From contig OX359248.1 in the NCBI GenBank assembly GCA_947179485.1, positions 30,017,378 through 30,081,377 on the forward strand: DNA of 64,000 bases, written 5' to 3'. Origin of the DNA: Allacma fusca. Taxonomy: Eukaryota > Arthropoda > Collembola > Symphypleona > Sminthuridae. The position numbers and the translations under genes were made by a program. Below are positions 10,005-59,180 of the stretch, piece by piece. Position 1 is the stretch's first letter, and each line of letters opens with the position of its first letter. The notes beneath the pieces were generated by a model. The model made no database searches and was not told where the DNA came from. It saw nothing but the letters and a program-made list of their open reading frames with translations.

Positions 10005-10018
10005 GACATGGGCCACCA
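10005..10018 (-). promoter_or_regulatory. Gypsy primer-binding site
   Basis: Directly after the 5' LTR the minus strand reads TGGTGGCCCATGTC. It begins with TGG, as required for pairing with a tRNA 3' CCA end. The matching tRNA is not recognised. Confidence 0.6.
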
Positions 10019-10554: not shown

Positions 10555-10840
10555 TATGATGATACATATGTTATGTTATCTTATTTGTCTTATAATTTAA
10601 GTATGGTGACACATACACGTGGACAGCAGTGTGAATATGTCACTATATTTACCTTTCTTAGAATTTCCACAGTTACCAATCTTAAACTTTCCAATATTAG
10701 TAATTATACTTTTGGTGACTCACTCACTGACTCTCACTTTATGATTGTGTGGATCGGTGCGCTTGTTCTACGTCCGCACTAACCTTTCTCTTTTACACTT
10801 AAGTCTCTCTTATGCCTAAAACTGTCACACTTGGAACTTT
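10555..10840 (+). repeat. Copia 5' LTR, truncated at its 3' side
   Basis: Matches the first ~285 bp of the 3' LTR (17,147-17,432) with few differences. It then diverges abruptly after CACTTGGAACTT. The last ~93 bp of the LTR, which in the 3' copy include AATAAA and the TCATCATA end, are missing. The first three bases are repeated at 1489-1491 because the Gypsy insertion duplicated CTAT. Confidence 0.85.
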
Positions 10841-10995
10841 CTAGAAGTTCTAGGCACACAATTTTATATTTTTTGAGTAGATAGGGACAGTTCACATCAG
10901 CTAGGATCAAAGGTTATCTGGGAAGCTGTATGTACTAAATCTACATCAGTTAAATATATAAACAGTGCAGGTTTACGGCTCAAAATAGTGCAAAA
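10841..10995 (+). promoter_or_regulatory. Copia leader, primer site not identifiable
   Basis: 155 bp between the truncated LTR and the gag start, with no TGG placed next to an LTR end. GGTTATCTGGGAAGC (about 10,911-10,925) is the only stretch resembling a primer site and is weak. The leader begins TCTAGAAGTTCTAG, a small palindrome at the junction. Confidence 0.35.
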
Positions 10996-12468: not shown

Positions 12469-15400
12469 GTTGTTCATGCAAACATATGTCAAACATCCCC
12501 CAAAACAAAGTTAGCTACATTATGTTACGAGAGATTGAATCACATCAATGGCAAATATATTCTAAAAAGTGTGAAAACCGAGGCAGTGCTAGGGATTCCA
12601 CTTAAAGAAGTTAGCGAAGATGTCCAATGTGGGATGTGTCAGTTAGGAAAGCTTAAACGCAAGCCATTCCCTCGGGTCACCACTCCCAACAATTACAAGC
12701 CAGGCGAAGCTATCTATGCAGATCTCGCTGGAAAGATGCCGTGTCCGTCATTAGGAGGTTCTTGGTACTTCCTACTTCTGAAGGACCATGCTTCCGGATA
12801 CAGACAAGTATTTTTTCTCAAGCAAAAATCAGAAGCAACGGCGCACATAAAGGACTTCATTGCATTCATTGAAAATCAGACATCACATACAGTGAAGAAA
12901 TTCTTCTCGGATAACGGTACGGAATTCGTAAATCGGCATTTAAGAACATTCTTCAGAGAAAATGGCATCATGTATGACACATCCGTTCCGTACTGTCCGG
13001 AAACTAATGGCAAAATAGAGCGTGAAATATGCACAATTAAGGATTGTGCAAGGACTATACTTATATCTGCAAACCTGCCTACGAAACTTTGGGCTGAAGC
13101 TGTCGGTACAACCGTTTACTTGCATAATCGCTTATTAGACAAGCATAGCCCCACTATCACCGCTCATGAAGCTGTTATTGGACGAAAGCCATCGCTTGCA
13201 CATGTCAGGGCATTTGGGTGTCAGGCATACTCCCATGTTCCACGTCAACTTAGAAAAACTTGGGATCCAAAAGGCATCAAATGCATCATGGTTGGGTACT
13301 CCGGCGATAACCGCAAGTATAGGCTTTATGATCCTGTTACAAACAAAATTCATGAAGACAGAAATGCTACATTCTTGGAATCCAATCCAGAGCACATAAG
13401 CGTGGTCACTGAAATGGAGGAGACCCCAAATGACACACAAGAAGTTGTACTTCCAACTCCTTGGTCAATCCCAATTCCCGAAGAAGCTCCAGTTGCACCA
13501 CAATCTTCAGATCCGGCAGTCATTCAGAGGGTTCAACCACTTCCTGGACCATCACACGTCGAGTGCTCGCCCCGCAGAATAGTTCATGCGGATCCCAATT
13601 TGTCAAATACGTCGGATTTGCTGTTTAGCGACAGTGATGATGAGAATGTCACATTTCACCAAGCGCAGGACAACTCGGAACTTACGGAAACAAACAAATT
13701 AGTCCAACCGCCTCCTACTCCAGTGCCAAATAAATCTTCAACAGCAGCTCCACAACAACCTCAAGCAAGTCGTGTCAGAGACATAGTCATTGACACTCCC
13801 AAAGGACGGTTCTCAACACAAGTCCCTGAAGGTGTTCCAACAAAAGTGACTATCCCACCCAAAAATACAAAGCAGGGGTGGTTTAAGCCACAAGTTCTGC
13901 CCAACAGGCTGCGATCCAAAAAGCAGATAGACTACACAGCTGAAACAGTTCTTATCGCTAATGTTATTGACGAACCAGCCACCTACCGAGACGCCATGGC
14001 ATCTACCCATAAGGACGAGTGGACGAAGGCCATAGCAAGCGAAATCGCAAGTCAGGAAACCAATCAATCATGGGAAATAGTGGATCCAAAACCAGGCGCA
14101 AAACTCCTCGACACAAAATGGGTTTTTAAACTGAAACGACATGATGATGGCTCCATAGAACGTTATAAGGCGCGTCTAGTTATACGTGGCTACCGGCAAC
14201 AGGAAGGCGTCGACTATTTTGAAACGTTCGCTGCCGTCAGCAGGTATGAATCAATAAGATTATTCCTGAATATTGCAGCGTCCCAAGGATTTTACATGCA
14301 GCAGTTTGATGTAACCACTGCCTACCTAAATGGGGACCTTCAGGAAGATATCTTCGTAAAGATTCCCACTGGATACTCTGCCCCTTCAGGGAAAGTTCTG
14401 CATTTGCTAAAGAGCATTTATGGGTTGAAGCAATCCCCAAGATGCTGGAATGAGAAGTTTTCCAACTTCCTATCACAAAAATTTGGGCTTCGCCAATCTA
14501 AATTCGGCCCTAGCATCTTTATTGGAGATATTAACTCTGTGTTCGTCTGCCTGGTTCTCTACGTTGATGACGGGCTACCTTTCTCAAGTCAGAAAGACAG
14601 CTTAAAACACGTCATGCAGAAGATTAAAGAAGTTTTTAAAATAACAGAAGGGCCACCAACAAATTATGTCGGTCTAGAAATAAGCCGTCAGGGCGAGACC
14701 GGTGCTATCAAGATCACTCAGCGGAAGTACGTTCAGCAAATGTTAGAAAGATTCAATATGGCTCAATGTAATCCCACTAGTGTTCCCTTACAACCCTACA
14801 CAGAGTTGGTACCCGCAGAGAAAATTGATGATTCATTTCCATATCGTGAATTGATTGGATCTCTAATTTTTCTTGCTAAGAGTTCTAGGCCAGACATTTC
14901 ATTTGCGGTATCCCGCTTAGCCCAGTTTATGAATTCATATAATGAATCCCATTGGAATGCTGCTAAAGGAATTCTCCGGTACCTTAAAGGAACTGCGGAT
15001 ATGGGCATTACCTACCATTGCTCTGGAGACATGGAGCTAACAGCCTACACTGATTCTGACTATGCAGGTGATAAGGTGACAAGAAAATCCACGAGTGGTT
15101 TTGTAGTGATGCTGAATAGCTCAATCATCACGTGGTCCTCCCAAAAGCAGCCGTGTGTGTCGTTATCCTCAACTGAAGCCGAGTATATCGCACTCACCTC
15201 AGGGGCCAGGGAAATCGTATGGTTAAGATCGTTCCTTGAAGAGATGGGATACCCACAGAAAGGCCCGACGTCTATTCTTGTCGACAACCAAAGCGCTATC
15301 CGCCTAACGAAAAACCCAGAAATGCACGCAAGGACGAAACATATTGATGTAAGGTTCCACTACGTCCGAGAACTGGAGGCAAATCAACTTGTTCATGTAG

Positions 15401-16578
15401 AGTACGTCCCCACAGAGGATCAACTGGCCGACAGCCTGACCAAACCTCTACTCAAAGGAAAGTTACAACACAAGCGCAACAGATTGGGAATCAACAATGA
15501 AGATTACAACAACTACAACAAGTTTTGCAAAAATACGATTGGGCCTTTGAAGCCTTCAGTAATTATCAGCTTAATTGCGTTGTTCATAATAGCAGACTCC
15601 GCCACGTCCCACAGCCCACCAGTACTCTGGAGAAAGAGCCACTATCCAGTTACAACTGGCCACGCACATGTTATGCTCTCTATTCAGCTTATAAATCCCT
15701 GTGATCTAATGATGGTCAATAATTTCCATCCCGGGGTAGCATCCCAAGCTGCATTAAAATGCGAACAACTAAGGAAGTGCAAAGAATCTTTTACTACTGA
15801 ACTGTCAAAGATATGTCCGAAACAGTACCTTGGTCAGTTAGTCAAAAGATTTATTGATCCAATCTCAATATCGATTTACATTGCGATTTTTGCCTCTGTC
15901 GTCGGTGTAACGGCTCTGGGTGTCGGCACCACTGCCCTCTCTGAAGTTCATTCAGTAGCTTCTCACAGCACCGAGCAAGACAAGTTGATAAATGAACTGG
16001 AAAATAAAGTTCAGAAAAATCATGAGGCTATCCGAAATCTCACCATAAGGTTTAACAGCGCAATGGAGGACTTACAAGCCCAACAAAGAGACTACGCAGA
16101 GTTTAAGGGAAAGTACGTCAACAGTACCTTTGCTATCACCGCACGCCTAATGATGTCCCGGACCATAATGCAACAATCTGCAAGACAGTGGAAAATGGGA
16201 AGAGTCGACCCAGCGTTTTTAGACTTCTTCAATGTCTCACTTCCATGTGGAGACAGATGTCCAATCGACCTTGCCCGGTCACAGAAGTGCTCGTCAACAC
16301 GCACGGGCGATAAAATCTTGGTAGAGTTTGCAGTTCAAGAGATCAGCCAGGATCTGATCCTCGTGGAGGCGGACCCGTTCTTTTTGATGATGAAGAATAA
16401 AGAGAAAACATGCAAGATCGAGTATACGGGTCCCAGAAACGCAATTCTCTCTGAGAAAGGCCATTGTGTGTATGCAATTAATGTGAACAATCAGGATAAT
16501 CATGATTACATTCTAGCTCCAGCACAAGGATGCATGGTAATCGAAATCTGCCAAATGGGACCAATCACTTCAAGATAA
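12469..16578 (+). CDS. pol: Copia Pol continuation (IN-RT-RNase H) fused to env-like region
   Basis: Same frame as gag-protease. Integrase has the HHCC finger (RLNHIN...CGMC), D in IYADLAGKM, D in FFSDNGTEF and E in NGKIEREI. A Pro/Ser linker follows, then RT from TKWVFKLKRHDDG with the YVDD box near 14,560, and RNase H (TDSDYAGDK, SSTEAEY, VDNQSAI) ending at ADSLTKPL. After ~15,520 the frame continues without a stop into a region foreign to Copia: a hydrophobic signal-like segment, a second hydrophobic Gly/Ala-rich segment, a predicted coiled coil and a Cys-rich domain. It stops at 16,576-16,578, where the env-like protein continues in another frame. Confidence 0.9.
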   Translation, partial: VVHANICQTSPKTKLATLCYERLNHINGKYILKSVKTEAVLGIPLKEVSEDVQCGMCQLGKLKRKPFPRVTTPNNYKPGEAIYADLAGKMPCPSLGGSWYFLLLKDHASGYRQVFFLKQKSEATAHIKDFIAFIENQTSHTVKKFFSDNGTEFVNRHLRTFFRENGIMYDTSVPYCPETNGKIEREICTIKDCARTILISANLPTKLWAEAVGTTVYLHNRLLDKHSPTITAHEAVIGRKPSLAHVRAFGCQAYSHVPRQLRKTWDPKGIKCIMVGYSGDNRKYRLYDPVTNKIHEDRNATFLESNPEHISVVTEMEETPNDTQEVVLPTPWSIPIPEEAPVAPQSSDPAVIQRVQPLPGPSHVECSPRRIVHADPNLSNTSDLLFSDSDDENVTFHQAQDNSELTETNKLVQPPPTPVPNKSSTAAPQQPQASRVRDIVIDTPKGRFSTQVPEGVPTKVTIPPKNTKQGWFKPQVLPNRLRSKKQIDYTAETVLIANVIDEPATYRDAMASTHKDEWTKAIASEIASQETNQSWEIVDPKPGAKLLDTKWVFKLKRHDDGSIERYKARLVIRGYRQQEGVDYFETFAAVSRYESIRLFLNIAASQGFYMQQFDVTTAYLNGDLQEDIFVKIPTGYSAPSGKVLHLLKSIYGLKQSPRCWNEKFSNFLSQKFGLRQSKFGPSIFIGDINSVFVCLVLYVDDGLPFSSQKDSLKHVMQKIKEVFKITEGPPTNYVGLEISRQGETGAIKITQRKYVQQMLERFNMAQCNPTSVPLQPYTELVPAEKIDDSFPYRELIGSLIFLAKSSRPDISFAVSRLAQFMNSYNESHWNAAKGILRYLKGTADMGITYHCSGDMELTAYTDSDYAGDKVTRKSTSGFVVMLNSSIITWSSQKQPCVSLSSTEAEYIALTSGAREIVWLRSFLEEMGYPQKGPTSILVDNQSAIRLTKNPEMHARTKHIDVRFHYVRELEANQLVHVEYVPTEDQLADSLTKPLLKGKLQHKRNRLGINNEDYNNYNKFCKNTIGPLKPSVIISLIALFIIADSATSHSPPVLWRKSHYPVTTGHAHVMLSIQLINPCDLMMVNNFHPGVASQAALKCEQLRKCKESFTTELSKICPKQYLGQLVKRFIDPISISIYIAIFASVVGVTALGVGTTALSEVHSVASHSTEQDKLINELENKVQKNHEAIRNLTIRFNSAMEDLQAQQRDYAEFKGKYVNSTFAITARLMMSRTIMQQSARQWKMGRVDPAFLDFFNVSLPCGDRCPIDLARSQKCSSTRTGDKILVEFAVQEISQDLILVEADPFFLMMKNKEKTCKIEYTGPRNAILSEKGHCVYAINVNNQDNHDYILAPAQGCMVIEICQMGPITSR
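15520..16578 (+). other. Env-like domain, first part (fused to Pol)
   Basis: This is the 3' portion of the long frame. It shows a signal-like hydrophobic stretch near 15,550-15,610 (SVIISLIALFIIADS). A second hydrophobic, Gly/Ala-rich segment near 15,865-15,950 looks like a fusion peptide. A charged heptad-like region follows (15,975-16,110), then N-X-S/T sites and paired cysteines (LPCGDRC, KTC). This arrangement resembles class I-type envelope proteins. I do not recognise the family. Whether it is released by protease, by splicing or not at all cannot be told from the sequence. Confidence 0.6.
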
Positions 16579-17108
16579 AGCACTGCCATCAACCCTTCCA
16601 AGGTGATGAACTTGAGTTTCTCCAGGTGAAGCCCTATAATGATGTTTATCATATATACTGTCCTGGGTCAAACCTTACAATTGCGGGAATCCAACGTCCC
16701 TGCCCGATTGACGAAGTCATTACAATTCCTATGCAGACAAATTTTTCTATCAATGACATGGTCTTTAATTCCCGACAAATCAAAATCGAGCACCATGAAT
16801 CCCTGGACCCAATTTTCACAACTAAGGCAAATTGGATTTTTCAATCTAATCTCAACTGGACTGCGCTCGAACTAGAAGTCAGTGCCACTGATGATTGGCA
16901 TCCAGACTACATTGTCCCCCTTAATAGCAGCCCATGGTTTTGGTCTACCGGATTCGTCTCCATCATCATCATTGCCCTTGTCGGTGTGATCATCTATCTA
17001 TGCCACAAGCGAAAACAAGAAAATCTCTCTCCCAATACTATTTCTGTAATCGCACTCCCCTCGAACCATAACCTTCAAATGTTGCCAATGAGTGTAGACT
17101 CAGCGTAA
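16530..17108 (+). pseudogene. Env-like domain, second part, out of frame
   Basis: Continues the env-like region in another frame after an apparent indel at about 16,540-16,580. It has several N-X-S/T sites, Cys residues and a strong transmembrane segment at about 16,935-17,000 (FVSIIIIALVGVIIYL), followed by a basic cytoplasmic tail (CHKRKQ). A C-terminal anchor with a basic stop-transfer is what an envelope glycoprotein needs. It ends 38 nt before the 3' LTR. Because of the frame change this copy cannot make the whole protein without frameshifting. Confidence 0.6.
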
Positions 17109-17133
17109 TCAATTAATGTGGATTGTAAGTTTA

Positions 17134-17146
17134 GATTGAGGGCAAG
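17134..17146 (+). promoter_or_regulatory. Copia polypurine tract
   Basis: Purine-rich GATTGAGGGCAAG directly before the 3' LTR, the expected priming site for plus-strand DNA synthesis. Confidence 0.6.
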
Positions 17147-17524
17147 TATGATGATACATATGTTATGTTATCTTATTTGTCTTAAAATTTAAGTATGATG
17201 ACACATACACGTGGACAGCAGTGTGAATATGTCACTATATTTACCTTTCTTAGAATTTCCACAGTTACCAATCTTAAACTTTCCAATATTAGTAATTATA
17301 CTTTTGGTGACTCACTCACTGACACTCACTTTATGATTGTGTGGATCGTTGCGCTTGTTCTACGTCCGCACTAACCTTTCTCTTTTACACTTAAGTCTCT
17401 CTTATGCCTAAAACTGTCACACTTGGAACTTGTCTTTACAGTCAGTTACTCTGTCAGTTTAACTGTTTAATAAACTCTTCTTCGTTTGTTATATTGAAAA
17501 CTCAATACCTTAATTTTCATCATA
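17147..17524 (+). repeat. Copia 3' LTR, 378 bp
   Basis: Full-length LTR from TATGATGA to TCATCATA, with an AATAAA-type signal (TTTAATAAACTC) in its last 60 bp. It is followed by the GCAAC duplication at 17,525-17,529. Confidence 0.93.
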
Positions 17525-40997: not shown

Positions 40998-42060
40998 AAT
41001 TATTAGTTTAATTCATAATGAATAAAAATACCAGCGGATTTGGTTGAAAATAGTTTCATTAAACTCAGAATGATCAGTTATATTGAAAAAAATCGGTTTT
41101 TTTTATTTTTACACTTTTTCATTGAATATTGCAGTTTTACTGTATAAATTTTTAGTTTATTTCATAACTAATAAAGTTGCCAACGGATTGGGTTAAAAAT
41201 AATTTCATTGAACTCAGAATAATTGATGCTGTCAAAATGGAAGGAACAAATCCGATTTTGAAGAAATTTTATTATTCACTTTTTACTTTAATCTTGCAGT
41301 TTCACTGTATTAAATATTACTTTAACTCATAATTTATAAATTTACCAACTGATTTGGGTGGAACTAGATTTATTGAATCCAGAATGACCGGTTTATTAAA
41401 AAAAGTTGAAAGGACTGCTTTTGATGAAATTTGGTTTTTTCACCCAAGGAATTGGGTGGAAATGATTTCATTGAACTCAGAATAATGAGCTCTATTTTTA
41501 AAAGTCGAAAAATCTGGTTTTTATGAAACTTTATTTCTTCACTTTCCCCCTAAATATTGCAGTTTTGCTGTATAAATTTTTACGTTAATTCGTAAATTAT
41601 AAACTTACCAGAGGATTTGGGTTTAATTGGTTTCATTGAACTCAGAATGACTAGTTCTATTGAAAAAAGCGGGGAAAATCTGGTTTTAATGAAATTCTAT
41701 TTTTTCACTTTTTCGTTGAATATTGCAATTTCCCTGAATAAATTATTTGTTTAATTCATAATTGATAAAGTCACCGACATATTTCGATGGGAATAATTCC
41801 ATTAAATTCAGACTAACCAGTTCTATTAAAATCAGTGGAAAACATACGGCGTTGAAGAATATTTATCTTTTTACTTTCCCCCTAAATAGGGAAGTTTTAC
41901 TGTATAAGTTATTCCTTTAATTCATAATTGATAAAGGTACAAACAGAGTTGGATAGAAATACTTTCATTGAACTCAAAGTGATTATTTCTATTTTTAAAA
42001 GTGGAAAAAACTGGTGTTGATGAAATTTTGTTTTTTAAATTTCCCCCTAAATGTTACAGT
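40998..42060 (+). repeat. Satellite array, block 7 (diverged)
   Basis: Six or seven diverged monomers in the same orientation, with ATTCATAAT, TTACCAACGGATTGGGTT and TTTCATTGAACTCAGAAT motifs. High divergence suggests the right edge of the array. Confidence 0.85.
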
Positions 42061-42572
42061 TGTGACAGAAGCAAGGTTCATTGCGAAGCTAAACCCTGAT
42101 CTGATGAACCACGCTAGTCAAACGGCCGTCTTCACAAGCCAGCAACAGCAAGGAGCACGCCGGAGGTCTTAAGTGGAGTGCAGTGAGAGACGTTGCCTCA
42201 TTGACTCTGGAGCAACCGATCAGTTAGCAGTAGTCTCGTAGCAGTAGTTCTATGCTTTTGTTTCCTTTTATTACTTTGGAACTTTAAGTTAAATTATCAA
42301 GTCGTTACTAATAAATAGCCAACGCAGAGAGTCACTCCGTCCATTTTTATTGGCATACCTTTTGACTGGTTCACATTATTATTTTATTCTCCTATTTTTA
42401 CTATTTTTGATGCTTACAAGCATTCGGGCATAAGCGTACTTAATAATTATTATTGAGAGAGAGAGTGAGAGGTTGGCATATGGATTTGTGAAGCTAATTA
42501 TTATGTTTAATTTTCTGCATTATAGCCACGGCACGGTAATATAGATACTAAGCTTACCCCTGATCTCTCTCA
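42061..42572 (+). repeat. 5' LTR of the 412/mdg1-like element, about 512 bp
   Basis: Starts TGTGACAGAAGCAAGG at the satellite border and ends CTGATCTCTCTCA three bases before the primer site. It contains an AATAAA signal near 42,310. Boundaries are inferred from ends and primer site because there is only one copy. Confidence 0.75.
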
Positions 42573-42575
42573 AAG

Positions 42576-42594
42576 TGGCGACCGTGACTACGGA
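42576..42594 (+). promoter_or_regulatory. Primer-binding site, tRNA-Arg type
   Basis: TGGCGACCGTGAC, three bases after the LTR. From established knowledge this matches the tRNA-Arg primer-site type used by the 412/mdg1 group of insect Gypsy elements. Confidence 0.75.
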
Positions 42595-43237
42595 CTTTAT
42601 TTCGGAACTTGGAAATTTTTGGAGGGTATTGGCAAAAAAAACAATCAGCCGGCCCGTTTTAGGAATTTTTCCGAAGTCCGCGAGTGTACTTAATTTTTTC
42701 ACTGTAAGTAAAATTAAGAAAGCAGCCACAGTGATCTGTAGCTTGCATTTTGTTTGTGGCTTTGGTGATCCCGAGCTACTCAATTATTTTTGTGTGTAAA
42801 TTATGCCAGGGTGATGAAATTTTGGAAATAAGTATTATAACTCAAGTAGCGTTGAAGTACATATACTATTTTAAGATTAGTGTGAACAGGTTAAATGGTT
42901 AGGGCCACGCTGAAAATTAGTAGTCAGTGGATGTAAATTAAGGGACGTAAAATTAGAGGCTGTAAAATATAAGATAAAGGTTGTTAGTTGGCTTCAACGT
43001 TAAGGTCATTCTCCTAGGTGGTACTCTGTCCTTAGTTGATGGGACAAATTAGCATGATAGCTCGCGAGGGTAGTTGGTTAACGCTCTGAACGTTTGGATT
43101 TCCAACATAGGGTCCTTGCTATTCATTTTTAGCTACCTTAGAAGTTTTTAAATAAGATCTATTTTTCTACCCAGTATTTTAAAGCTATTTTTTTAACCAA
43201 ACGTGCTGGTCACTATCTACTTATTTTAATTTAATTT
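42595..43237 (+). other. Leader of the 412/mdg1-like element
   Basis: 643 bp of non-coding leader between primer site and gag. Long leaders are usual in this group. No further feature is supported. Confidence 0.5.
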
Positions 43238-44453
43238 ATGAGTAAAGCCGATAAGGAAATAGCGGCTCAATCTTTGTCAGGATTTGACCCAACCTCAGAT
43301 AGGGCTCTTCGAAGGCAAAATAGGCAAGTTCGAAGTAAAACAGTATCCTATTCAAATCAAGATCCTATCTCAGTTTCTGTAGTAAATCCTAATCCTGAAA
43401 ATAGTACTAGCTTCCAACAATCTCAACAAAGTACGAATATGGCACAATCATGGTACCTAGGTCTTTCTGATGAAGAGAAAGGTTACATGAAACAATATCT
43501 CGATAAGGCATAGCAGGACTCATTAGATACGTTTCGTTTAGCACAAGAAACTACCAAGGCTCTCAAAGATTTGGTTGACTTACATAAGAGTTCTGCAAAT
43601 CAGAACAACCCTTCAGCTCAGAATGTCATTATCACAAACACAAATGTTGAAGCTCCGTTTTACGATAAGAAGAGGATGAATTCAAATTATTTTTTCGAAC
43701 AAGCTAGGAAATATTTTCAAGCTCAGCATCACCCACCTGAAAAGTCAGTTTATCTATTGGGAAATATACTGAAAGGTGACATGAAGAGATGGTATGAGAA
43801 TACTGTCTCCGATACTACAACTTGGGGTGAACTTAAGGATGCATTTAAGTCAGAATTCGATACCGTTTATGATGCCAGAGAGCGAGCTAGGCTTTTAGCA
43901 ACGAAAACTCAAAAACACTATGAAAGTGTCTCAGAGTATGTCTACGAAATGTTGTTTCTAGCTGGGCAGGTAGACAGTAATGAGTCCATGGAAGAGAAAT
44001 TGCGACGTGCATATTTAGGTCTCCACGTTAAAACATATAAGGATATTAAATGGGATCCAGATCAGAATGATCCAACTCCAGGAAAATTGATTGCTGCGGC
44101 TGAGGATACCCTTAGGTCTTTGAATAATACCCAAAAGTTGGACAGCCAGAGCAAGGTTAAATTACCTACATTAGTAGTAATGATGGTCAGGGCTCCAGTA
44201 AAAGCCAATTCCAAGCAAAAAAAATGGTTTTAATAAGGCAAAGACGCAAGTAGACCCGAAGGTCAGGTGTAGTACGTGCAAGGGCTATGGTCATGACGAA
44301 AAAAGCTGCTCTAATAAGGTCAAAGGAGTAGCTATGAGTTTCCAACATACTTCGGTCGAATGTTGGAATTGTGGCGGGGAAGGACACGTAAAGTATCAGT
44401 GTCCCTCGCAAAGTGCTCCGGAAACTGAAGATTCTTCGTCGGGGGAATCATAG
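43238..44453 (+). pseudogene. gag: Gag of the 412/mdg1-like element, broken
   Basis: Capsid-like region with FEQARKYFQAQ and MKRWYENTV...TTWGELKDAFKSEF, a typical retrotransposon Gag pattern. Two CCHC knuckles follow (CSTCKGYGHDEKSC and CWNCGGEGHVKYQC) at 44,268-44,403. Breaks: an in-frame TAG at 43,511-43,513 and a frameshift in an A8 run near 44,214-44,223 that puts the knuckles in another frame. Gag ends at TAG 44,451-44,453 with pol in the -1 frame, so the ancestral element probably used -1 frameshifting. Confidence 0.85.
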
Positions 44454-46642
44454 TGGGGCAGGCGGGTGAACGCCTGGCCCCAAACAATTATCAATTATAT
44501 TTTAGTTTAGCACCTTTTAATTGCGTTAGTAGAAAGGATAAGCCTCCAACAACTCACATTAAAATCAATAACAAGGAATTCCAAGCATTGGTTGACACAG
44601 CATGTTCCAGATGTTGCATAACTAATGAAGCAGCAAAAAGTCTTCCATTTCCAATTAGTGCGGTAAATAGTACGTTTTTAACAGCATCCGGCGAAATTTT
44701 AAAAGCCAAAGGATTTATTGAGCTAGAGTTTCTATTAGGAGATAGATTTATCAAAGGAAAGTTTAATGTTTTGTCCAAATTGCATTGTGGCGCAGATCTT
44801 ATTTTAGGGAAAGATCTGATAGATGCGAATGATAAAAGCTTTAACATAAACCGAGATATGTTCTGGTTTGGCTTAAACCCACCACAAGAACCTTTTCTCA
44901 TTAGTGCAAACTCAAAACGAGTTTTAAGTTTAAAGTTACAGGGTACGAAGTGTGACGATGAAGTCCCGTTAAAGGAACGGATCGAGAAGGATATTTTAGA
45001 AATTTTAGAGGAGTTTAAAGATGTTGCAGCAAAGGATGGTAAAATAACAGACTGGGTATACCATCACATCGATTGTGCTGAAGATCAAATCCCGAAAGCA
45101 AAGGTTTATGGCTTTCCACCTGCTAAACTTAAAATTATTAATGAGGAGGTAGTGAAAATGCTCGAAGCTAGAATTATTCGTAGGTCCACATCTCCATATA
45201 ATTCTAATATAGTTTTAGCCAAGAAAAATGGTTCTTCTAGACTGTGCATTAACTTCAAAAAGGTAAACTCTATCACTAGGGAAAATGCGGCAACTCTGCC
45301 TAACCTACAATGGATGCTTAGACAGATTCCACTTTATAAATGGTTTTCCAAATTTGATTTAAAAAATGGTTATTTCCAAATTAGGCTTGAGCCTCAATCA
45401 ATCCCTAAAACAGCGTTTAGTGTGCCAGGAGGTGGCCACTATGAGTTCTTATGCCTTCCATTTGGTCTTATGAATGCTCCAATGACTTTTCAGCAGTTTA
45501 TGAACTATGCATTCGAAGATCATATGTATAAATTTATTATGTGCTACTTAGACGATGGTCTAATATATTCCAAGACGTACAAGGAAAATTTGCAACATTT
45601 ACGTATAGTATTTAGTATTCTAAGGCAGGCTGGCGTCACACTAAATGTAGATAAAAGTCAGTTTTGCGTACAGGAAACAGAATTTCCTGGCCACGTAATA
45701 ACAACCGAAGGTTTGATTAAAAGTGCAGACAAGGTTCAGGGAATTCGGGATTTTAGAACTCCCATTAATGCGAAAGATGTCCAAAGGTTTCTTGGAAAGT
45801 CAGTCTGGTACTCTACGTTTGTTAAGAATTTTTCAACAGTAGCAGCTCCATTGTATAAATTGCTGAAGAAAGATGTTATTTGGCATTGGAGGGAAAATCA
45901 GGAATTAGCATTTAATAAGATCAAGGATGAAATGGAAAAAGAAGTTTTTTTACAAGGGATTGATTATGAGCGCCCTATTATCGTACAGACAGATGCTAGT
46001 CACATAGGTATCGGTGCAGTTTTAAAACAGGAAATTGATAATAAAGAAAGAATTATTGAGTGTAGGAGCGCCTTGTTAAATGTCAATCAACAGAAATGGG
46101 GCGTGTACGAGAAAGAATGTTTTGCTATAGTTTGGGCACTAAGAAAAATCCATGATTTGATAGCAGGTCATCATATTATAGTTCAAACAGATAATATGGC
46201 AGTTACATGGATGAAACGAAATCCAAGTAAAAAAGCTAAAGTAGAACGCTGGAGCATAGAACTTGAAGAGTATAGTTATGACCTTATTCACATTAAAGGA
46301 AAGGATAATATTTTAGCGGATGCATTGAGTAGGGCACCAAAGGATTCATCAGAGCCTGATCAACTCTTGGATGATATCGCCGAAGGTGAACATATTCCTT
46401 ACATTAATTATTTATTTTCTGATGTGACGCGAGAGAGACTAAGGGAAGCTCAGCTTGAAGATGCAGAGTTAACCAGCATCATAAAATCTTTAAAAACTGC
46501 CAGTAGTGATCCGAGTAACGTATTTCAGTTGGAAGAAGGATTACTTTGTCGGAGAGTTCCGAAATATAATATGTTTGACGTTAGGAAGCATCAACGGAAA
46601 GATCGACAGGAACTGGTTGATGCATATAGAAGCGATGAGTAA
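44453..46642 (+). CDS. pol: Pol part 1 of the 412/mdg1-like element (PR-RT-RNase H)
   Basis: Protease active site reads LVDTACSRCC, with Ala in place of the usual Gly of DTG, so it is probably impaired. RT has RLCINFKKVN, FSKFDLKNGYFQI, GLMNAPMTFQQFM and the catalytic YLDD box (CYLDDGLIYSK). RNase H has VQTDASHIGIGAVL and ends with DNILADALSRAP. The frame is open for 729 codons and then stops at 46,640-46,642. Integrase continues in another frame. Confidence 0.88.
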   Translation: MGQAGERLAPNNYQLYFSLAPFNCVSRKDKPPTTHIKINNKEFQALVDTACSRCCITNEAAKSLPFPISAVNSTFLTASGEILKAKGFIELEFLLGDRFIKGKFNVLSKLHCGADLILGKDLIDANDKSFNINRDMFWFGLNPPQEPFLISANSKRVLSLKLQGTKCDDEVPLKERIEKDILEILEEFKDVAAKDGKITDWVYHHIDCAEDQIPKAKVYGFPPAKLKIINEEVVKMLEARIIRRSTSPYNSNIVLAKKNGSSRLCINFKKVNSITRENAATLPNLQWMLRQIPLYKWFSKFDLKNGYFQIRLEPQSIPKTAFSVPGGGHYEFLCLPFGLMNAPMTFQQFMNYAFEDHMYKFIMCYLDDGLIYSKTYKENLQHLRIVFSILRQAGVTLNVDKSQFCVQETEFPGHVITTEGLIKSADKVQGIRDFRTPINAKDVQRFLGKSVWYSTFVKNFSTVAAPLYKLLKKDVIWHWRENQELAFNKIKDEMEKEVFLQGIDYERPIIVQTDASHIGIGAVLKQEIDNKERIIECRSALLNVNQQKWGVYEKECFAIVWALRKIHDLIAGHHIIVQTDNMAVTWMKRNPSKKAKVERWSIELEEYSYDLIHIKGKDNILADALSRAPKDSSEPDQLLDDIAEGEHIPYINYLFSDVTRERLREAQLEDAELTSIIKSLKTASSDPSNVFQLEEGLLCRRVPKYNMFDVRKHQRKDRQELVDAYRSDE

Positions 46643-48293
46643 CATTAGTCAATCAATGAATTTGTTACAAGAAAGATTGCAAAGACTTGAGAATGCAATT
46701 ATAAAACAGAGAAAGGAATACTCTGTAAACAAATCTGCAGGGAGAACATGCGAAGAGCATACCCTTAACACAGCTCTGTACTGTAAAAATAAAGTTAAAG
46801 CAGCTCTTTACTGCTCTACACTTACGAAGTGTGAGGAGCACTTCTCAATGTGTACAATGTTTCCGGAAACACTTAAGCGTGACAAGCGCTTAGAATCGGC
46901 AGAAATTCATAAAATATTAACTGCCACAAAGTTAAAACAAGTTGAAGAATTGAAAGCTATCAACACTTTGACGGTCCGTGACTGTTCAATGAGGAGCAAT
47001 AAACGCTCTGCGATTGCTAGCAAAAACATGGAAAACTTATTACAGATGTCCATGTTGGTTCCAGTTGTCCCAAAGCGTATGCAGTCCGAAATTATTTCAT
47101 CATTCCATGATGTTCCAGAAAGCGCGCATTTAGGATTCAAGAAGACTAGACACATGTTAATGAAACGATTTTGGTGGAAGGGCATGACAGCCGATATAAA
47201 ATACTTCGTAAAGACCTGTGAAGTATGTCAAGTAATTAAGTGTTCAAACCAGACCCCACAAGGTCTGATGGGACATAAACTAAATATTGTTGAGGCTCAG
47301 GATACTATTTTTATAGATATTGTTGGTAAGCTTCCGAGGACAAAAAGACAGTATGAGTATATTCTTGTCGTCCAGGACGAATTTACAAAATGGTTAGAGA
47401 TTTTTCCTATTAGGAATTGTAATGCACCTACTATAATTGAATTATTAGAAGACCAGGTTTATTGGTTAGCATATTATCACCCACAGTCAAATCAAGTTGA
47501 GCGCAGTAACAAAGATCTTAAGACCATGATCACAGCTTTCTGTGGTAAAAGGCAATCAGACTGGGATAGACACTTGCAAAAATTCGCCTTGACCCTTCGA
47601 ACAATGATTAGGGATTCATTAGGTTGTAGTTCTGATGTTCTGATGTTGGGTAGACACATTCAATTGCCCATAGACAGATCGTTGCAACCAAGAGAAAGAA
47701 AGTCTCTCCAAGCGTCAGACGTAGCTCAAAGGCTGCCTGCGGAATAAGCTAAATTGCGTGATTGGGTTTTAAAAAATATGCATAACTCTTATCTCTCCCA
47801 AAAACAGCGGTACGATAAAAAACGAAAGCCATGTAAGTTCAAAGTAGGAGACAAAGTTTTACTAAGAACTCATATATTGTCAAATGCGGAAGAGAAAATT
47901 AGTAAAAAGCTCAGTAAAAAATGGTTTGGTCCATTCAGTTTAGTAGAAGAGGTTGTCCCAGGTTTAACTTTTAAATTAGTTCATGAGCTCACTGGTGAAC
48001 CTTATGGTACTCATCATGTTTATGATTTCCGACCATACCTTCAGGATAAATCTGATAGGCCCAATGTTTGGAAATCTAGGCAGGAAAAGAGTTTCGAGGT
48101 ACCTAACGAGAGTGTCTTGCAAACTCCTTCACTTACGGATAGAGTGCAACCAGAGGAGAATGACCAGAGAAGTATGGTTAAGTCTGGTAGAAATCTTCGA
48201 AAAACACCAAAGATTGATTATGCTAGGTTAAGTAAACGGATTAAAACGCATGTTTTAAATTTAATTCTGAATAATAGTGAATTTTACAATTAG
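46506..48293 (+). pseudogene. pol: Pol part 2: linker and integrase, deleted and broken
   Basis: After a frameshift from RNase H there is an unusual ~140-residue linker (46,640-47,060) rich in Cys-Glu-Glu-His and Leu-Tyr-Cys repeats. Integrase follows: HHCC finger (AHLGFKKTRHM...CEVCQ), first D in FIDIVGKLP, E in SNQVERSNKDL. The segment that should carry the second catalytic D, between LEDQVYW and AYYHPQSN, is missing, a deletion of about 40-50 residues. An in-frame TAA at 47,745-47,747 precedes the C-terminal domain (KVGDKVLLRTH, KKWFGPFSLVEEV). Confidence 0.85.
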
Positions 48294-48512
48294 GTTAAAA
48301 TAGGATAGGAATTTCAACTCGCGATGTTGCAATAGGTTAAGATTATTTTAATTACCGCATTAAAAAATTTTGTTAGCTGGCTCTAATAGGATTTTAATGC
48401 GTGGTTGTAGTCGAATTTTAAATTACTTTTAAATGTTTGTAAATATTTTAATTGTATGTAATTTTGCTTTTGCTTTTTATATAGCGGCTAAGGTGTACCC
48501 TTAAGCTTCAAA
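48294..48512 (+). other. Spacer between pol and the exonuclease-like ORF
   Basis: 219 bp of AT-rich non-coding DNA. The last bases before the ATG are AGCTTCAAA. No LTR end, intron acceptor or target duplication is recognised here. Confidence 0.4.
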
Positions 48513-49799
48513 ATGTCGCTTGGAGCAAGTTACCCAGGTCGCGTTCAAGATAGATATGTATGGCTTAAGAATCATATGAAGCTTGTTAATAACACCCAAA
48601 GCTTTGAAATTAATTCGCAACAAAGTCATGCTATTGATGTGTGGAAGTTTTACGAAACGCACCGTACTAATTCGTTCAACATTCTAACTATTAACTCTCC
48701 AGTGATGTATTGTAATTCGCTCCCTTTGATTAATGCTATGTATAAACATGTTATGAATGAGACTGAAGTTGGCTTACACATTTGTACACATAATTTAAGT
48801 ACGTATGGTTACGGATTTGTTGTCGTAGTTTCAATAGCTACTCAGTCTAGAAGCTATGTTATACCGGTGATAAGCCAACGTGATTTGATCTGCTTGAAAC
48901 TTAAAGCTATATTTGAAAATACTTTGCTGCTTAAAATTGTATATAATGTTGGCCGAGTAGTTAAGTTTTTGTTTCGAGATTTTGATTCTGTTCTGTTAAA
49001 TTTTGTTGATTTAAAAAACGCAAGTTATTACTGGAATGGAAAGAATGCTTCTGATATAGATGTAAGTCTGATTGAGTTAGGGAAACGCTACATAAATTTT
49101 GAGCTCCCAAAGTCTGATTTTTCTACAAATTGGTCAAGTTCCTTTATCGATTTTAATTCCCAACTTGTAGCTGCTAGATTGTCTAGAATTAACATTTGTA
49201 TCTGGAATAATATTAAGTCTTTAGCCAATGCTCGGGGGAAATTAATTTCTATGCTAAATTATCTGGAATCAAATGAGTGTAAATCTTTGTCCAAAGCAGT
49301 CCATCAATCTGTGCTTAGTGTCATCGAGCCAATTCAATTTATTGAATCCATTCAGAAAGATTTAAATAGACCTGTAAATTCAGATGAAGCAAAAATGTGT
49401 ATGTTGTTAAACACATGGAGGTATCAATTAGCAAGGGATGAGGACCTCCGAGTCCACGAAGTATTTAGTTCTGACGCCATAAGAATTACTCTTGGTCTTC
49501 CTAAACCTGTATCACGTTTAACTTTCTGCCAAAGTGTAAAGCTTTCCAAGCTAGCTTTCGCATACAAAGATCCTATTTTGGAAATTGTCAATGGTAACTT
49601 GTCAACTCTTACAATCACCACCGACGACCGTGAACATGAACCTATGGAAGTTGATGTACAAGAGGTTTCCGAAAGCTCGTCAGGTTCTTCAATTGACCCA
49701 GCCGAAGTGGTTTCGGTAAATTTTCATGAGGATGGGGACTTTGATGTCGCTCCAATCATCCCAAGCATAAATTTAATTCATAACTTATTAAGTTACTAA
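48513..49799 (+). CDS. Degenerate Rrp6/EXOSC10-like protein (exonuclease fold + HRDC), 428 aa
   Basis: An unbroken single-exon frame. Residues ~83-235 follow the DEDD 3'-5' exonuclease fold of Rrp6/EXOSC10: GLHICTHNLSTYGYGFVVVV at the Exo I strands, then ENTLLLKIVYNVGRVVKFLF at Exo II, then LIELGKRYINFELPK at the segment before Exo III. Residues ~296-360 (LLNTWRYQLARDEDLRVHEV onward) resemble an HRDC domain. The catalytic acids expected at Exo I, II and III are replaced (Gly/His, Val, Ser by my alignment), so nuclease activity is unlikely. An acidic Ser-rich tail follows, and the last ~10 codons come from satellite. It lies 219 bp after pol in the env position. Homology is read by eye. An inactive domesticated or captured exonuclease is the inference. 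Confidence 0.6.
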   Translation: MSLGASYPGRVQDRYVWLKNHMKLVNNTQSFEINSQQSHAIDVWKFYETHRTNSFNILTINSPVMYCNSLPLINAMYKHVMNETEVGLHICTHNLSTYGYGFVVVVSIATQSRSYVIPVISQRDLICLKLKAIFENTLLLKIVYNVGRVVKFLFRDFDSVLLNFVDLKNASYYWNGKNASDIDVSLIELGKRYINFELPKSDFSTNWSSSFIDFNSQLVAARLSRINICIWNNIKSLANARGKLISMLNYLESNECKSLSKAVHQSVLSVIEPIQFIESIQKDLNRPVNSDEAKMCMLLNTWRYQLARDEDLRVHEVFSSDAIRITLGLPKPVSRLTFCQSVKLSKLAFAYKDPILEIVNGNLSTLTITTDDREHEPMEVDVQEVSESSSGSSIDPAEVVSVNFHEDGDFDVAPIIPSINLIHNLLSY

Positions 49800-50030
49800 G
49801 GGATTTGGGTTTAAATAATTTCATTGAACTCAGAATGACTAGTTCTATTGTAAAAAGTGGAAATAATCCGGTTTTGATGAATTTTTATTTTTTCACATTC
49901 CCAATAAATAATGCAGTTTTATAGTGCGAGCTGTTACTTTAATATATACCTTATAAAGTTACCAACGTACTTGAGTGTAAATAGTTTCATTCAACTCAGA
50001 ATTACCAGTTACATCCTTTATACTAATTTG
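49768..50030 (+). repeat. Satellite remnant, about 1.5 monomers
   Basis: AATTTAATTCATAACTTATT, then GGGATTTGGGTTTAAATAAT and TTTCATTGAACTCAGAATGA, clearly the same satellite and orientation but diverged. It supplies the stop codon of the exonuclease-like ORF. Confidence 0.8.
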
Positions 50031-53200: not shown

Positions 53201-53331
53201 AGTGCCTTTAAAATGGTGTGAATGAATATGTGTATTTAATTAGGATGGAGATGATATTTGTTTAGATTTTTGGGGCATTAACTATTATATCAAGAGTTGT
53301 TTAAAACATTTTTTAAATGGTGAATTCGCAG

Positions 53332-56300
53332 AACGAGGGGAAGTTAAAGCTCATCCTACCTTGGAGACGTGGCATTTTTGTAAATGTGGAAAGGCCTTTA
53401 GCAACCCGGATAGCTATGTCCTTCATCGGAAGACACATCAGGGGAAGAATATCAGCTTGCAGCTGGACCTGACCCCGGCACCGTCCAAGAATGGGAAAAA
53501 GGTGGAAGAGCTGAATTGTGGGAAAGCGTTGAAGAAACCACTGACTTCAAAAGTGATAATCAAGAAGAGAATTGAGAAGGAAGTGAGAGTTGTGGAGAAG
53601 CCGGATCCTTCTCCGAAGAAAGTCCAAGTGGTTAAGGTTACTCCCAAAGGTATCAAATCCATCAAGGGGATTAGGCTGCACATCAAAAATGGTGCTAATG
53701 TCAGGCCTGTGTGGCCGGTTGCTACCCCTCCGCAGATGCAGCCACAGGCTAATAATATACATAGATGCAACCAGTGTGAGCAAGTATTCATACTGGCAGT
53801 TCATTTAAAGTAAGCTTATAAATACATTTCAGGGTTACACATTGTGGAAATGAGTATCAAAAAGTGGGTAACGGATCTAATTTTTTAATTGTTTATTTTA
53901 GGGCACATATTAGATTAAAACATACTCCATCCTTACTGGGTAAGGTGGGAGAAGCTATGGAGGTGGTGATGACATTACCCCAGCCGGTTCAGGTAATGCC
54001 CAAGCCCAAACCCTTGACAGCTAAAAGACTAAAACTTCGTACAAAAGTCTCGAATGTGAGTTGTGAACCTTGCAAGCTTGCCTTCAGGACACATATTGGC
54101 TACTTTCTACATCTCAAGGTACGAACTTATAATATTTTTTTTAGTTACTGGGGGGGGGGGAATTATAGGATTTCATTTCTGTAATTGTTAAACAATTACA
54201 GGTTGCGCACGGAAGTAAGGGATTGCATTGTTGTCCTCATTGTCCGAAGAAAACTTTGTCCAGGGATACTTTGCATGCGCATGTAAATTCGTTTCATAAG
54301 ATGACCAAACCTACGAGTAACATCAGCACCCGATCCACCGGCAAAAAGATTCAGGAAGTGTGTGAAGCAAGTGCTGACTCGGCAGTATATGTAGCACATC
54401 CAGTCGTTGCAGTACCTATCAGTAATGAGCTTAAGGCTGTGAAACTTTCTGAGGATATGACGAACTTTATATCTACTAGGTCTGGAAATCATCAGAAATT
54501 ACCTGAAGTGAGTAATGCCAGAAACACATCTCTTCTTCCTAGGTGCAAGATATGCAAGAGGTTGTTTTACAGCGCGAAGTTACTGCAGTACGTTTACTTT
54601 TTATTTCTACATTTTTATGGAGTTTTGACGTAAGAACTATTTCGGAAAAGGGATTATAGGAAATAATTTTTAAATGGTTCTATCGAAAACTACCTTAATT
54701 AATCCTCCTTTGTTTCAGGACACACATGATTCGGAAGCATAACAAGCCTGAGTGCAGAACTATAGAAAAATCTGTGGTATTCACTTTACATCCACTTCGC
54801 CTTCCTTTATGTCGGGTTTTGTATACTGTTGAAATTGATTCGTCTTTTTACGATAGGAACTCGTGCATGAGAATATTCCTTTGTCAACACCGAAATCATC
54901 ATCTAAAAAGTCTTCGTTATTGAAAGTCGGGATGCCTGGTAAAGCTAGTTCGGAAGGTAAAAGTTTGAATGGTGGTTCCTTGTTTCATGATGTGGTCGGG
55001 ACAAGGACGAGATCAAGATTAACCAGTACCAATAGCTCCAGCATTTCCGATCCGATCCTAACTGATGATGTTCCTACATTGCCAGTGGGCTCACAAGCAG
55101 AGTAAGCTGAATTTTAATGATCTTGGTGAAAAAGTTTACCTATGTTAGAATTTTGGATTGTTATTTGCTTCAAACAATGTTTTTTCGTGCAGTAAAACGG
55201 ATATTAAGGACAAGGAGACTGCTGAACCTATGGCACCGTCAAGTAGCGATTTTACGTGTAAATCGTGTGGTATTAATTTTGAGACTCGAAGAAGCTTAGT
55301 CCATCATACCAGAGTGAGATTTTGTGTTGCCCTGCATTGTATGTGCATTATAAGTATGTAATTTGCTTAAAGCTAATGATTATGTGTACTTAGGAAAGTC
55401 ATCCGGTTGAAAATTTACTGAAGTGCAAGGATTGCAGTTTGCAGTTTACTACAGCAAATCGGCTTAAGAAACACAGTTTAAGACATACTTTGGCATCTAC
55501 GCGTCAGACTGTTAAAGCTGTGAAACTATCAGGTGGGAACATGGTTAACCTTCGTAAATCTTTTGAAGAAAAGATAAGGTCCGATGTAAGCACAAGGAAT
55601 CTTGGTAAAAGTGCACGTCAGTTGAAGCGTCCTTCTACGGTTTTGAAAGATAAATTGCAAGATGGGGAGCAGAAGAAAAGGTTATTTGACTGTAATCTGT
55701 GTGGCAAGAAATTCTCGCACTTTTTTTCTCTCAGGTAAAGGGCAATCCCACAAGTAACTTACTTGCCACCGAAGTTAAACTGGTGTATTTAATTCCTGCT
55801 GATAACCTTTATCTTTTTATGTAGCCAACATTTAAAAAATCACTCCAGTCCATTTTCTTGTGGCATTTGCGGAACAGGATTTTCGTTACAAGCAAATTTA
55901 GACCTTCACAATGAGGTAAGTTTAGAAAGTTTGAATGTGATTTAATGTATTTTATGGTGGTATAATTTTTTAATTAAAATCAAATAATTTTCATTGTCAC
56001 AGAAAGCTCATTTTCCAGGAGGTCAGTATGCTTGCGAAATATGCCCCTGTGTTTACGAGAATTACCGGGGGTTAGCCAGTCATGTAGCTCATCGTCACCA
56101 AACGAAGTTACAAGCAAAGTAATCCATAATACTCCAATTTATTATTCTAATTAATTTGAATGAAATATTTGTTCGTTTTTTAAGACATGGTCTACTAAGA
56201 ACTACAGGTAAATTGTAAAGACACAGTAGGAGGAAACGGAGCACTATTAGGTGCTCGTGTAGGAATCCTGCTCTCAGTCTGAGTGCAGGGTTATATAATG

Positions 56301-59180
56301 GGCGGTGTTACAATTTACAATACATACTCTGGTTATATCTACAAAATAGGCGAGTGTGCACATTTCTGGGTGTAATTACTTGTAAGTTGGTACGTTATAA
56401 ATATTGGGATCTCGGAGGCTAGAGCATTTTACATTCGAACAAAATGGTATATGTCATAAGATCCACCATGGAGACAGACACTACATGAACAGGTTAGATT
56501 AAATCTAGTTGTGGTATAATTTGTGTTTTCATCTTTTTATTAATTTGAACAGCATCGTTGTCGTGACAAAGGGAAAAAATAACAGTTCATTGGTATCTGA
56601 GGAGGATATTAATCCCACTCAAACTCCAGTCGGACATGTAAGTAGCGTATTCATGAATCATACATACATCATAAATATAAGTTCTATCAGTGTTTAGCAC
56701 AAATTGAACTTTTATGCTTCATTGTACAGGAACACCAATCAAGTTTGTTGCCAACTTTCGAGGTAAAGCGAAGGCCCCAGAAGCCATCTACCGAGATTAA
56801 CACGACTGGATCGACTGATAAAGCTCCAAATTTTATAAAATGTGAAATATGCGGGTGTGAAATTACTAAAAATTTATATGCGTCTCATTTAAAGGTACTC
56901 ACATTCATTTTCAAATTTTTAACTGAATAGAGGGACGGAGAAAACAATGTATGACAAAATATTATCATAATTTCTGGATATTCAGGAAGCCCATGTTGTC
57001 TCCGGAAAGTTCCATTGTCCTCAGTGTACGTGTGTTTTTGAATCCAGACAAAGTTTATCAGTGCACAAAAGAACACTACATTTTTACAGCGGTAATAAGT
57101 CCTTAATGAAACCGATCTATGCCAAACACAAACTATCACCTGACAAGTGAGTTGCTTAGATATATATCCAGTCACAGTATGTGTTTTACGGTGTTAGAAT
57201 TAATTAAAGGTTGTGAAGTAAGTGATTGTGATTGGATTGATCCAGTTCCCCCATCTTACAATTAGAAATACAGAAGGTTTGAAATTGTATTAATTTTTAT
57301 TTAGTAATGTCGATTGTAGTCCGAAAAGGGAACGTAAAGAAACCTCAAACACCGTATTACTTAAGGAGACGCCATCGGTAAACAATTGTGAATGGTCTAG
57401 CTGCACTTTGTGTAGTTTAAGCATCCCTGGCGGCTATGCTGAACTGCAGAAACATTTGCAGGTCGGTACTTTAAAATGCAGCAGTAAATTACATAGGCAT
57501 ACATGATATGGTTTTATTTATAAGCATAGTTTTTTCACAGATTGCTCATGTAAATCCAAGTACATTCAGGTGTCAGCATTGTTCTTGTTCTTTCCGGGAC
57601 CGACGTTCTCTGGTCGTTCATATGACAAATGTGATCCATCCTGTGAATGATAATCCAGTCATACCTGTTTTGATAACTCAAAATAACATTGGAACCGTTC
57701 AAATTCTACCCCACTTCAGGCCAGTACTTCCACAAGGTACCAGTATTACTGAACTGAGTACCACGATAAACCCGATGGAGGAGGTTCCGTGCAAAGCTAC
57801 TGAAACATCTATTGTTCTGGACAAGAAAGAATCTACAAATGAGCTGGTCGAAGATAGTATTCCGAAAATTATAAGCTACTATTCACAAAATCCAGAGTAC
57901 ATTAAAAAACAAAGTCCCCAGAAAAGCAACGAATCTGATGTCCTCGTATGTGTCGAAACTAATCCATCGGAACTTGGAAAGTTAGGAAAAGCAATCGAAA
58001 GTGAAGCTAAGAAATTGATGAAAGCGAAGGATATTAAGAAAGTTCGTGTAACTCCTGGAATATCTATAAGCGTGGTTCAAGCAAATGAGAATGATAATGA
58101 GAAAGGAATGAAAATTAACGGAAATTCCAATGAAAGTCATGGTATAATCCCAGGTGGTTTACACTTGACGAACAGGGGAAAAAGCAAAAGGAGAAAGCAA
58201 AAGCCATTGTTGCCTCCTCCCCCGACAGAGTTGGCCACAGTTTCATCAGAATATCAGCTCCCTTTCGCATTGGATTCGCTTCAGGTTAAACCCATCGTAA
58301 ACGAAGAAAAATCTTTACCCCTAATAAGTAACACGTGCACGAAGTACATGCCTACTGCTAATGTGAATGCTATTGATCACTCTACTGTTGGATTATTTTC
58401 TGCTGTTTTGAAGCCTATTACACCAGAAGTAATAACTTTTCCAATGTCGACCCTTGATCGGGCCAGCGAAGCAACTACGAATGATTGGGACTCTTGGAAT
58501 CTTTCGAAACTTTTAGGAACTAGCAATGACGATGACGATTTTCCCACAGAGAGTGGAAATAATTGTTCTACAGAATCACCAGTATCACAGAAAAGTTTTG
58601 ATATAGGACCGGTAATTGAGACTGATCCATTGGAAAGTGTGCCGGTTAAATCCACTAGTTTTGTAGAATCGAAAAGTGTTAGTCAAAATAAGACAAGACT
58701 GGCAACTTGTCCTGTTTGTAAGAAAAGCTTTTTCAACCAGCAAAAGCTGTTGTAAGTTGTTCTTATGGATTTTAAAAACATTACTAGATTGTGCATGATT
58801 GAAACTTAGTCTCGATTGTGCTAATAGTTTTTGTAACAATTATGAATTGCTATAATCTAAACTTGTTTTTAAAATGTAAGTGTTGAAGTGTATGTCATAA
58901 TTTTGTAGGAGGCATATTGAGCTTCACGAGGATCAGGCTAAGCTGGCTCTGAAACCAGGTGGAAAGTGTGGATACTGTGGACAAAGTTTTGACGTCCATG
59001 CAGCACTCTGGACTCATCTGAAAGTATGGTCCTACGTATTCTTGCTGCATGTTCTTGCCAATATATCAAGATATTGTTTGAATGTAGAACTGTAACGCTA
59101 ATTTTTTAACGTAGGAGTGTCGAGGCAAATCTTCTTCGAATGAAGTAGTCACTGGCGGAAGTCACCCGGAGTCGACATAG
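53332..59180 (+). CDS. Multi-C2H2 zinc-finger protein, 16 exons, 16 fingers
   Basis: Exons joined by GT/AG sites with consistent phases: 53332-53809, 53902-54118, 54202-54587, 54719-54776, 54857-55101, 55193-55313, 55394-55734, 55825-55915, 56003-56118, 56553-56637, 56730-56894, 56986-57146, 57305-57461, 57541-58751, 58909-59023, 59115-59180 (TAG). About 1,336 codons, 5' end incomplete. It encodes 16 C2H2-type fingers, mostly CX2CX12HX3-5H, dispersed and not in a tight array. Finger 1 has CXC (FCKCGKAF) and finger 16 ends in Cys instead of His (HLKEC). The long exon 14 carries a ~350-residue Ser/Lys/Asn-rich spacer. A nuclear nucleic-acid-binding role is inferred. No orthologue is recognised. 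Confidence 0.88.

Follow-up and report, generated by a model that had tools for sequence, protein, structure and literature searches.

A dead Rrp6-type protein encoded by the third open reading frame of a 412/mdg1-like retrotransposon lineage in Allacma fusca

In bdelloid rotifers, the long terminal repeat (LTR) retrotransposons Juno and Vesta carry, past pol, a third open reading frame (ORF3) for a DEDDy exonuclease, and passages of the same report describe such ORF3s as having been gained by unrelated element types (PMC5408684). A passage of PMC6338049 counts a DnaQ-like exonuclease among the accessory domains known from LTR elements, and the Dada elements, as presented in a passage of PMC3706591, are also mobile elements with a DEDDy exonuclease domain, compared there in a figure that includes RRP6, although these are DNA transposons, found in a fungus and an alga, that keep their catalytic residues. 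Here we describe a 64-kb stretch of the A. fusca contig OX359248.1 (the whole of which we call the window) in which an unbroken ORF of 428 codons, at 48513-49799 of the forward strand, starts 219 bp past the end, at 48293, of the pol of a broken retrotransposon, just as an earlier note on this DNA had reported. Like those of Juno and Vesta, it is an exonuclease-fold ORF past pol of an LTR retrotransposon; unlike them, with their invariant residues intact and DEDD changed to DEED, it is dead, it has an HRDC domain (a term missing from the main text of PMC5408684), and it belongs to a 412/mdg1-like lineage with a CCHC knuckle, a basic tail and splice signals. We hold with high confidence that it is a 3'-truncated ORF3 of a 412/mdg1-like Ty3/Gypsy lineage encoding a family-wide dead Rrp6-type protein.

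The probability of 435 open codons arising by chance is about 2e-14 at the ORF's own base composition, and its chi of 48.7 for three-base periodicity lies above the highest value, 11.2, found in a control of 140 overlapping pieces, taken from window stretches that we assumed to be non-coding. Within its translation, P0001, Pfam places DNA_pol_A_exo1 (PF01612) at residues 74-210 (E 1.2e-10). The HRDC domain (PF00570) is weak by Pfam (residues 299-324, E 0.23), but the Rrp6 profile covers this stretch with a conditional E of 1.5e-4 (independent E 0.038) and the predicted structure takes it in. RRP6 is the top match of P0001 in phmmer and likewise in the Foldseek and VIA structure comparisons. 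At the DEDDy site all five positions are replaced (D89H, E91C, D149V, Y219V and D223L), in contrast to 59/59 comparison homologues, which we picked out of 120 listed. The order of exonuclease fold then HRDC and the replacement of the Exo I, II and III acids, both read by the earlier note from the letters alone, are thus borne out: P0001 has the fold of the Rrp6/EXOSC10 family and keeps 0/5 of the D-E-D-Y-D residues of the active enzyme. These data support the view that the window ORF encodes an inactive Rrp6/EXOSC10-type protein. Relative to Rrp6/EXOSC10 itself, the nuclear exosome exonuclease and the best match in sequence and structure, ORF3 lacks the catalytic residues and a detected PMC2NT, adds a knuckle and a tail, and is encoded by a retrotransposon.

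EXD1 and Egalitarian, an RNA adaptor with an exonuclease-like domain, are also among the VIA matches, their chains spanning the exonuclease domain only. That ORF3 is an EXD1-like pseudo-exonuclease countering or exploiting PIWI-interacting RNA silencing is nevertheless improbable, as the family profile described below matches RRP6 but has no EXD1 chain among its hits at E<=0.1, and HRDC is a feature of Rrp6 and RNase D. EXD1 and Maelstrom, which a passage of PMC5408684 describes as inactive DEDD derivatives still binding RNA, and Egalitarian further differ from ORF3 in being host genes rather than element-borne.

A search of the genome (392.7 Mb, 91 contigs) gave 43 matches of P0001. In 20/20 other copies gag and pol lie upstream of the ORF in the window's order, some pieces being fragmentary. 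The reverse transcriptase (RT)-RNase H piece, for which 86 of 2075 candidates were scored, is found at 33 places with 59-100% identity, after which identity drops to <=38% (53 places); ORF3 lies <=8 kb from 31/33 of the close places versus 0/53 of the distant ones. No pol is listed at 5/36 loci with an ORF3-type match, the Rrp6-like locus L011 among them. In all 12 of the 20 copies with both sides the element stands between direct repeats of 366-563 bp, and 22-45 nt separate the ORF3 end from the 3' repeat in 11 of these 12; in the other, c12_21011, the two overlap by 56 nt and the repeat match also ends about 50 nt before the primer-binding site (PBS). The two repeats of a pair share 99.3-100% identity in 11 copies and 94.5% in one, ORF3 is identical across 1611 nt in three copies, and one ORF3 used as query finds, among 55 matching pieces, 18 stop-free places spanning at least 512 of 537 residues. 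These results support the proposal of the earlier note that ORF3 is linked to and spread by a retrotransposon, and related elements with the ORF between pol and the 3' LTR, which it had suggested looking for, do exist.

Members with both ends are ordered LTR-PBS-gag-pol-ORF3-polypurine tract-LTR. A tRNA-Arg primer is a mark of 412/mdg1 elements; the LTRs, tRNA-Arg PBS, gag and protease-RT-RNase H-integrase order of the present family are those of 412/mdg1-like Ty3/Gypsy elements, a label that rests on element structure. Gag carries two CCHC motifs in 19/20 copies, one of them interrupted by a stop in L038, and a single motif in L033.

The ORF3s of ten other copies, 505-565 residues counted from the first ATG, share a layout of conserved N-terminal block, dead exonuclease, HRDC region, linker, CCHC knuckle and basic tail. 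In 11/11 alignment rows none of the five active-site residues survives, the substitutes differing among sub-lineages, and the CCHC block is visible in 10/10 non-window rows. A family profile of 10 members matches RRP6 (5.5e-15, across exonuclease and HRDC), EXOSC10 (4.4e-13) and also the nucleocapsid zinc knuckle (E 0.014). With Pfam at E<=0.05 10 members scanned give exo1 in 9/10, zf-CCHC in 9/10 and HRDC in 5/10; the member without zf-CCHC is the truncated P0001, in which none appears even at E<=1. PMC2NT was sought with the Rrp6 profile across the window in six frames, and with Pfam (E<=0.05) in 10 ORF3s, and was not found by either. The N-terminal block (residues 10-40) has R, W, M, N and Q residues that are invariant in the aligned copies.

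The window copy itself is made up as follows.

41007-42060, forward strand: satellite-like repeat units of 155-166 bp, left flank of the element
42061-42572, forward strand: 5' LTR, inferred from the satellite border, TG...CA ends and PBS
42576-42588, forward strand: primer-binding site TGGCGACCGTGAC, complement of the host tRNA-Arg(tcg) 3' end
42704-42709, forward strand: donor-like site GTAAGT
43238-44233, forward strand: gag, broken by nonsense, with a Retrotrans_gag domain
44429-48293, forward strand: pol, broken, with protease, RT, RNase H and integrase pieces
48461-48484, forward strand: pyrimidine tract and AG acceptor-like site, 28 nt upstream of the ORF3 ATG
48513-49799, forward strand: ORF3, dead Rrp6-like protein, truncated, native until about 49776
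48678-49262, forward strand: inactive DEDDy exonuclease domain, residues 56-250 (Pfam, residue alignment, structure)
49365-49610, forward strand: HRDC domain, residues 285-366 (Pfam, Rrp6 profile, predicted structure)
49772-50010, forward strand: satellite-like repeat giving the ORF's last codons and stop

The gag-pol is broken, as had been noted: pol changes frame somewhere from 46494 to 46642, meets a nonsense codon at 47745-47747 and has a gap in integrase. Alignment with the C5 copy runs to 49776, where that copy continues into the zinc knuckle; past that junction the window copy consists of the 155-166 bp repeat, whose unit also borders the 5' LTR. Because the C5 alignment stops and the repeat begins, the last residues and the stop of the window ORF are satellite. 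The copy is without the zinc knuckle, basic tail, polypurine tract and 3' LTR that its relatives have, and a 3' LTR or second LTR copy was looked for in the window and not found. In the phase of the satellite unit about 20 bp separate the end of the left flank from the point at which the right flank takes up the repeat again, which agrees with a single deletion of the 3' end; we dropped this fit as proof of insertion into one unit, since other arrays start near the same phase. Near 51031 NPF-like codons and a possible acceptor had suggested the second exon of a host Rrp6 gene with introns, but this reading was ruled out by the zinc-knuckle tail of the relatives, by the mapped junction to satellite and by the finding of NPF beyond 55% of the length in just 7/121 proteins. 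The window copy is thus a dead, truncated insertion, a relic of an element whose ORF3 came with pol.

In trees of 10 elements the supported groups for RT and ORF3 agree, showing that ORF3 was co-inherited with pol; the ORF3 tree does not resolve the order of c8_20872 and c1_27530, and its branches are several times longer than those of RT. The donor gene was not resolved by an exonuclease tree, in which the 7 ORF3s included group together (100/99). The ratio of nonsynonymous to synonymous differences (pN/pS) of the window ORF3 is 0.34 against the C5 copy, 91% identical in amino acids (neutral P 8e-5), 0.35 against c1_43706, 0.35-0.36 against relatives at 61-62% with dS near saturation, and 0.81-0.82 against two distant, near-saturated members; other whole-gene pairs, in a list limited to pS <=0.70, give 0.32 and 0.71. 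On the C5 branch 13/20 polarised changes are nonsynonymous; in the comparison of window and C5 copy as a whole, 21 changes could not be assigned to a branch. Eleven close ORF3 pairs, compared over their first 102-126 codons, give pN/pS values from 0.00 to 1.03, with one pair unchanged, compared with 0.00-0.13 for the RT of the same pairs. ORF3 is therefore under purifying selection that is weaker than that on RT and near neutral in some young pairs, and the selection visible in the window ORF belongs to the element lineage.

The earlier note had envisaged a captured or domesticated inactive exosome-type protein, and a host gene whose frame is held open at this locus by host selection would account both for an open frame next to broken gag-pol and for the purifying signal on the window branch, where 8/18 polarised changes are nonsynonymous (P 0.0016). 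However, given 4-6 lesions in 5.06 kb of gag-pol (our own count), the probability that 1.26 kb stays free of them is 0.22-0.37, so that the open ORF beside dead gag-pol is no evidence alone; the ORF sits in an element copy, without the conserved C-terminus and ending in satellite, and longer stop-free ORF3s occur at 18 places. We give host domestication very little credence. What survives of that proposal is the inactive Rrp6-type protein; neither domestication nor the constraint or later arrival read from the open frame is supported, ORF3 having been inherited with pol, and comparison with related copies reveals no special constraint on the window ORF.

To assess how ORF3 might be expressed, we scored splice sites with weights that we set ourselves. 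The best acceptor-like site of each of 9 elements is 27-36 nt upstream of the ORF3 ATG; its score is equalled by <=6% of same-element 80-mers in 8/9 (c1_24464 fails, with 35%), and the mean score was reached by 0/2000 shuffles. GTRAG lies 86-150 nt past the PBS in 9/9 elements compared, with 8/9 falling within one 50-nt window, picked post hoc, versus a mean of 1.0 over offsets. The tRNA-Arg(tcg) end has 3 exact genome matches, of which 2 were scanned, with an ARAGORN gene call in one (L047) and none in the other. From these sequence signals ORF3 is predicted to be made from spliced RNA, joining the leader donor to the acceptor just before ORF3. The env-F of insect errantiviruses is similarly a third ORF past pol expressed from spliced subgenomic RNA, but it is an envelope protein; according to passages of the same source, third ORFs in D. 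melanogaster are env genes, and each of the 17 Metaviridae lineages of that fly that have one belongs to the gypsy/gypsy clade and not to gypsy/mdg1, so that the present family would add a third ORF to a clade without one reported in that species (PMC12992720).

The slot past pol and the env-like splice signals might suggest that ORF3 stands in for env and serves cell-to-cell spread, which we find very hard to credit, the ORF3 domains being of RNA-binding type. The maximum 19-residue hydropathy of 9 ORF3s is 1.34-1.78 and exceeds the usual cut-off of 1.6 in 3/9, as an env-like protein might, but these three peaks begin at residues 103-130, within the exonuclease domain, and hydropathy reveals no clear membrane segment in the 9 ORF3s.

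The best explanation as a whole combines the identity of ORF3, its spliced expression and a role as RNA shield or escort, and we put this combination a little short of an even chance. Its mechanistic part, that ORF3 shields the element's unspliced genomic RNA and aids its cytoplasmic delivery, is drawn by analogy and offered tentatively. ORF3 would be expressed from the leader-to-ORF3 spliced RNA, as env is in insect retroviruses; in the nucleus the protein would bind the unspliced genomic RNA of its element, using the pseudo-active-site groove, HRDC and zinc knuckle, and taking the place of host Rrp6 without cutting; and the genomic RNA might thereby be protected from exosome surveillance and helped to the cytoplasm for translation and packaging. 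Passages of PMC4577213 report that many transposon transcripts rise upon RRP6 depletion in Drosophila S2 cells. Weighing against a shield of this kind, members of the same family, 412 for example, rose or fell by insertion site according to the same passages (PMC4577213), the missing PMC2NT speaks against ORF3 being an ordinary exosome member, and leader donors do not stand above pol pieces by score alone. A pseudo-exosome-subunit decoy or shield with an RNA-binding knuckle, that is, an element-encoded antagonist of Rrp6-dependent silencing, spliced and placed in the env slot as part of an arms race, of which the several-fold faster evolution of ORF3 than of RT would be a sign, seems to us doubtful.

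Export of the Cer1 genomic RNA requires CERV, an extra retroelement protein made from a spliced mRNA, for which the passages of PMC10309623 mention no exonuclease fold; the analogy suggests that CERV and ORF3 may play parallel roles in genomic RNA handling. With this precedent, ORF3 could resemble CERV and work in RNA packaging or export or as an RNA chaperone, its Rrp6 fold a mere RNA-binding scaffold with no exosome link, as would suit both the zinc knuckle and basic tail, conserved where the C-terminus remains, and the failure of the Rrp6 profile and Pfam to find PMC2NT. We judge this unlikely, given that gag of 19/20 copies already carries two CCHC motifs and that the exonuclease-HRDC pair is retained despite fast ORF3 evolution. 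If the shield and escort role is true, nuclear RNA surveillance has antagonists encoded by retroelements, and a lost enzyme has turned RNA escort; a lineage that has retained its dead Rrp6 over deep divergence, and in which copies are open and LTRs nearly identical, lends the question to a direct test.

Searches of 5.8 billion proteins, made with the truncated P0001 as query and not the longer ORF3s, returned no relatives in other species at E<=0.01 (3199 candidates) and, for residues 60-345, none at E<=10 (1382 candidates); P0001 had no match in viral_contigs. Among the papers listed in our searches of an open-access library, none describes a dead Rrp6 ORF3 in LTR elements.

Other Rrp6-type loci in the genome include a host Rrp6 gene of several exons (L009, C12:11292108-11293678), a diverged multi-exon paralogue (L012, C10:18803571) and, at C1:60852260, L011, a 344-codon open frame with DNA_pol_A_exo1 at 3.6e-30 and a VDLE Exo I motif. 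A second multi-copy family comprises L014-L018 (C10:35828409, C12:21703245, C8:35006522, C8:25824220 and C12:32607458, respectively) and L048, with a Rrp6-type exonuclease, HRDC, DEDDy residues apparently kept and apparent introns. Inspection by eye shows a CCHC-like motif, which Pfam matches at E 0.3 in L014 and not at all in L017. L014 and L015 are 99.65% identical across 3.1 kb, L016 and L017 99.4% across 3.0 kb, and L014 is adjoined by two minus-strand ORFs, one matching DUF4218 at E 0.0033, below cut-off. This family may represent a DNA transposon that carries an active relative, which might even be the ORF3 donor.

Elsewhere in the window, large tandem and dispersed arrays of the 155-166 bp repeat occupy 19088-42052. 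Two LTR-type elements, with frames on opposite strands, lie at 1492-10553 (a 535-bp direct repeat, 1492-2026 and 10019-10553, 100% identical) and 10555-17435 (a 289-bp pair, 10555-10842 and 17147-17435, 98.3% identical). Weak C2H2 zinc-finger matches in several frames at 53244-58755, below curated cut-offs, are probably exons of a host gene.
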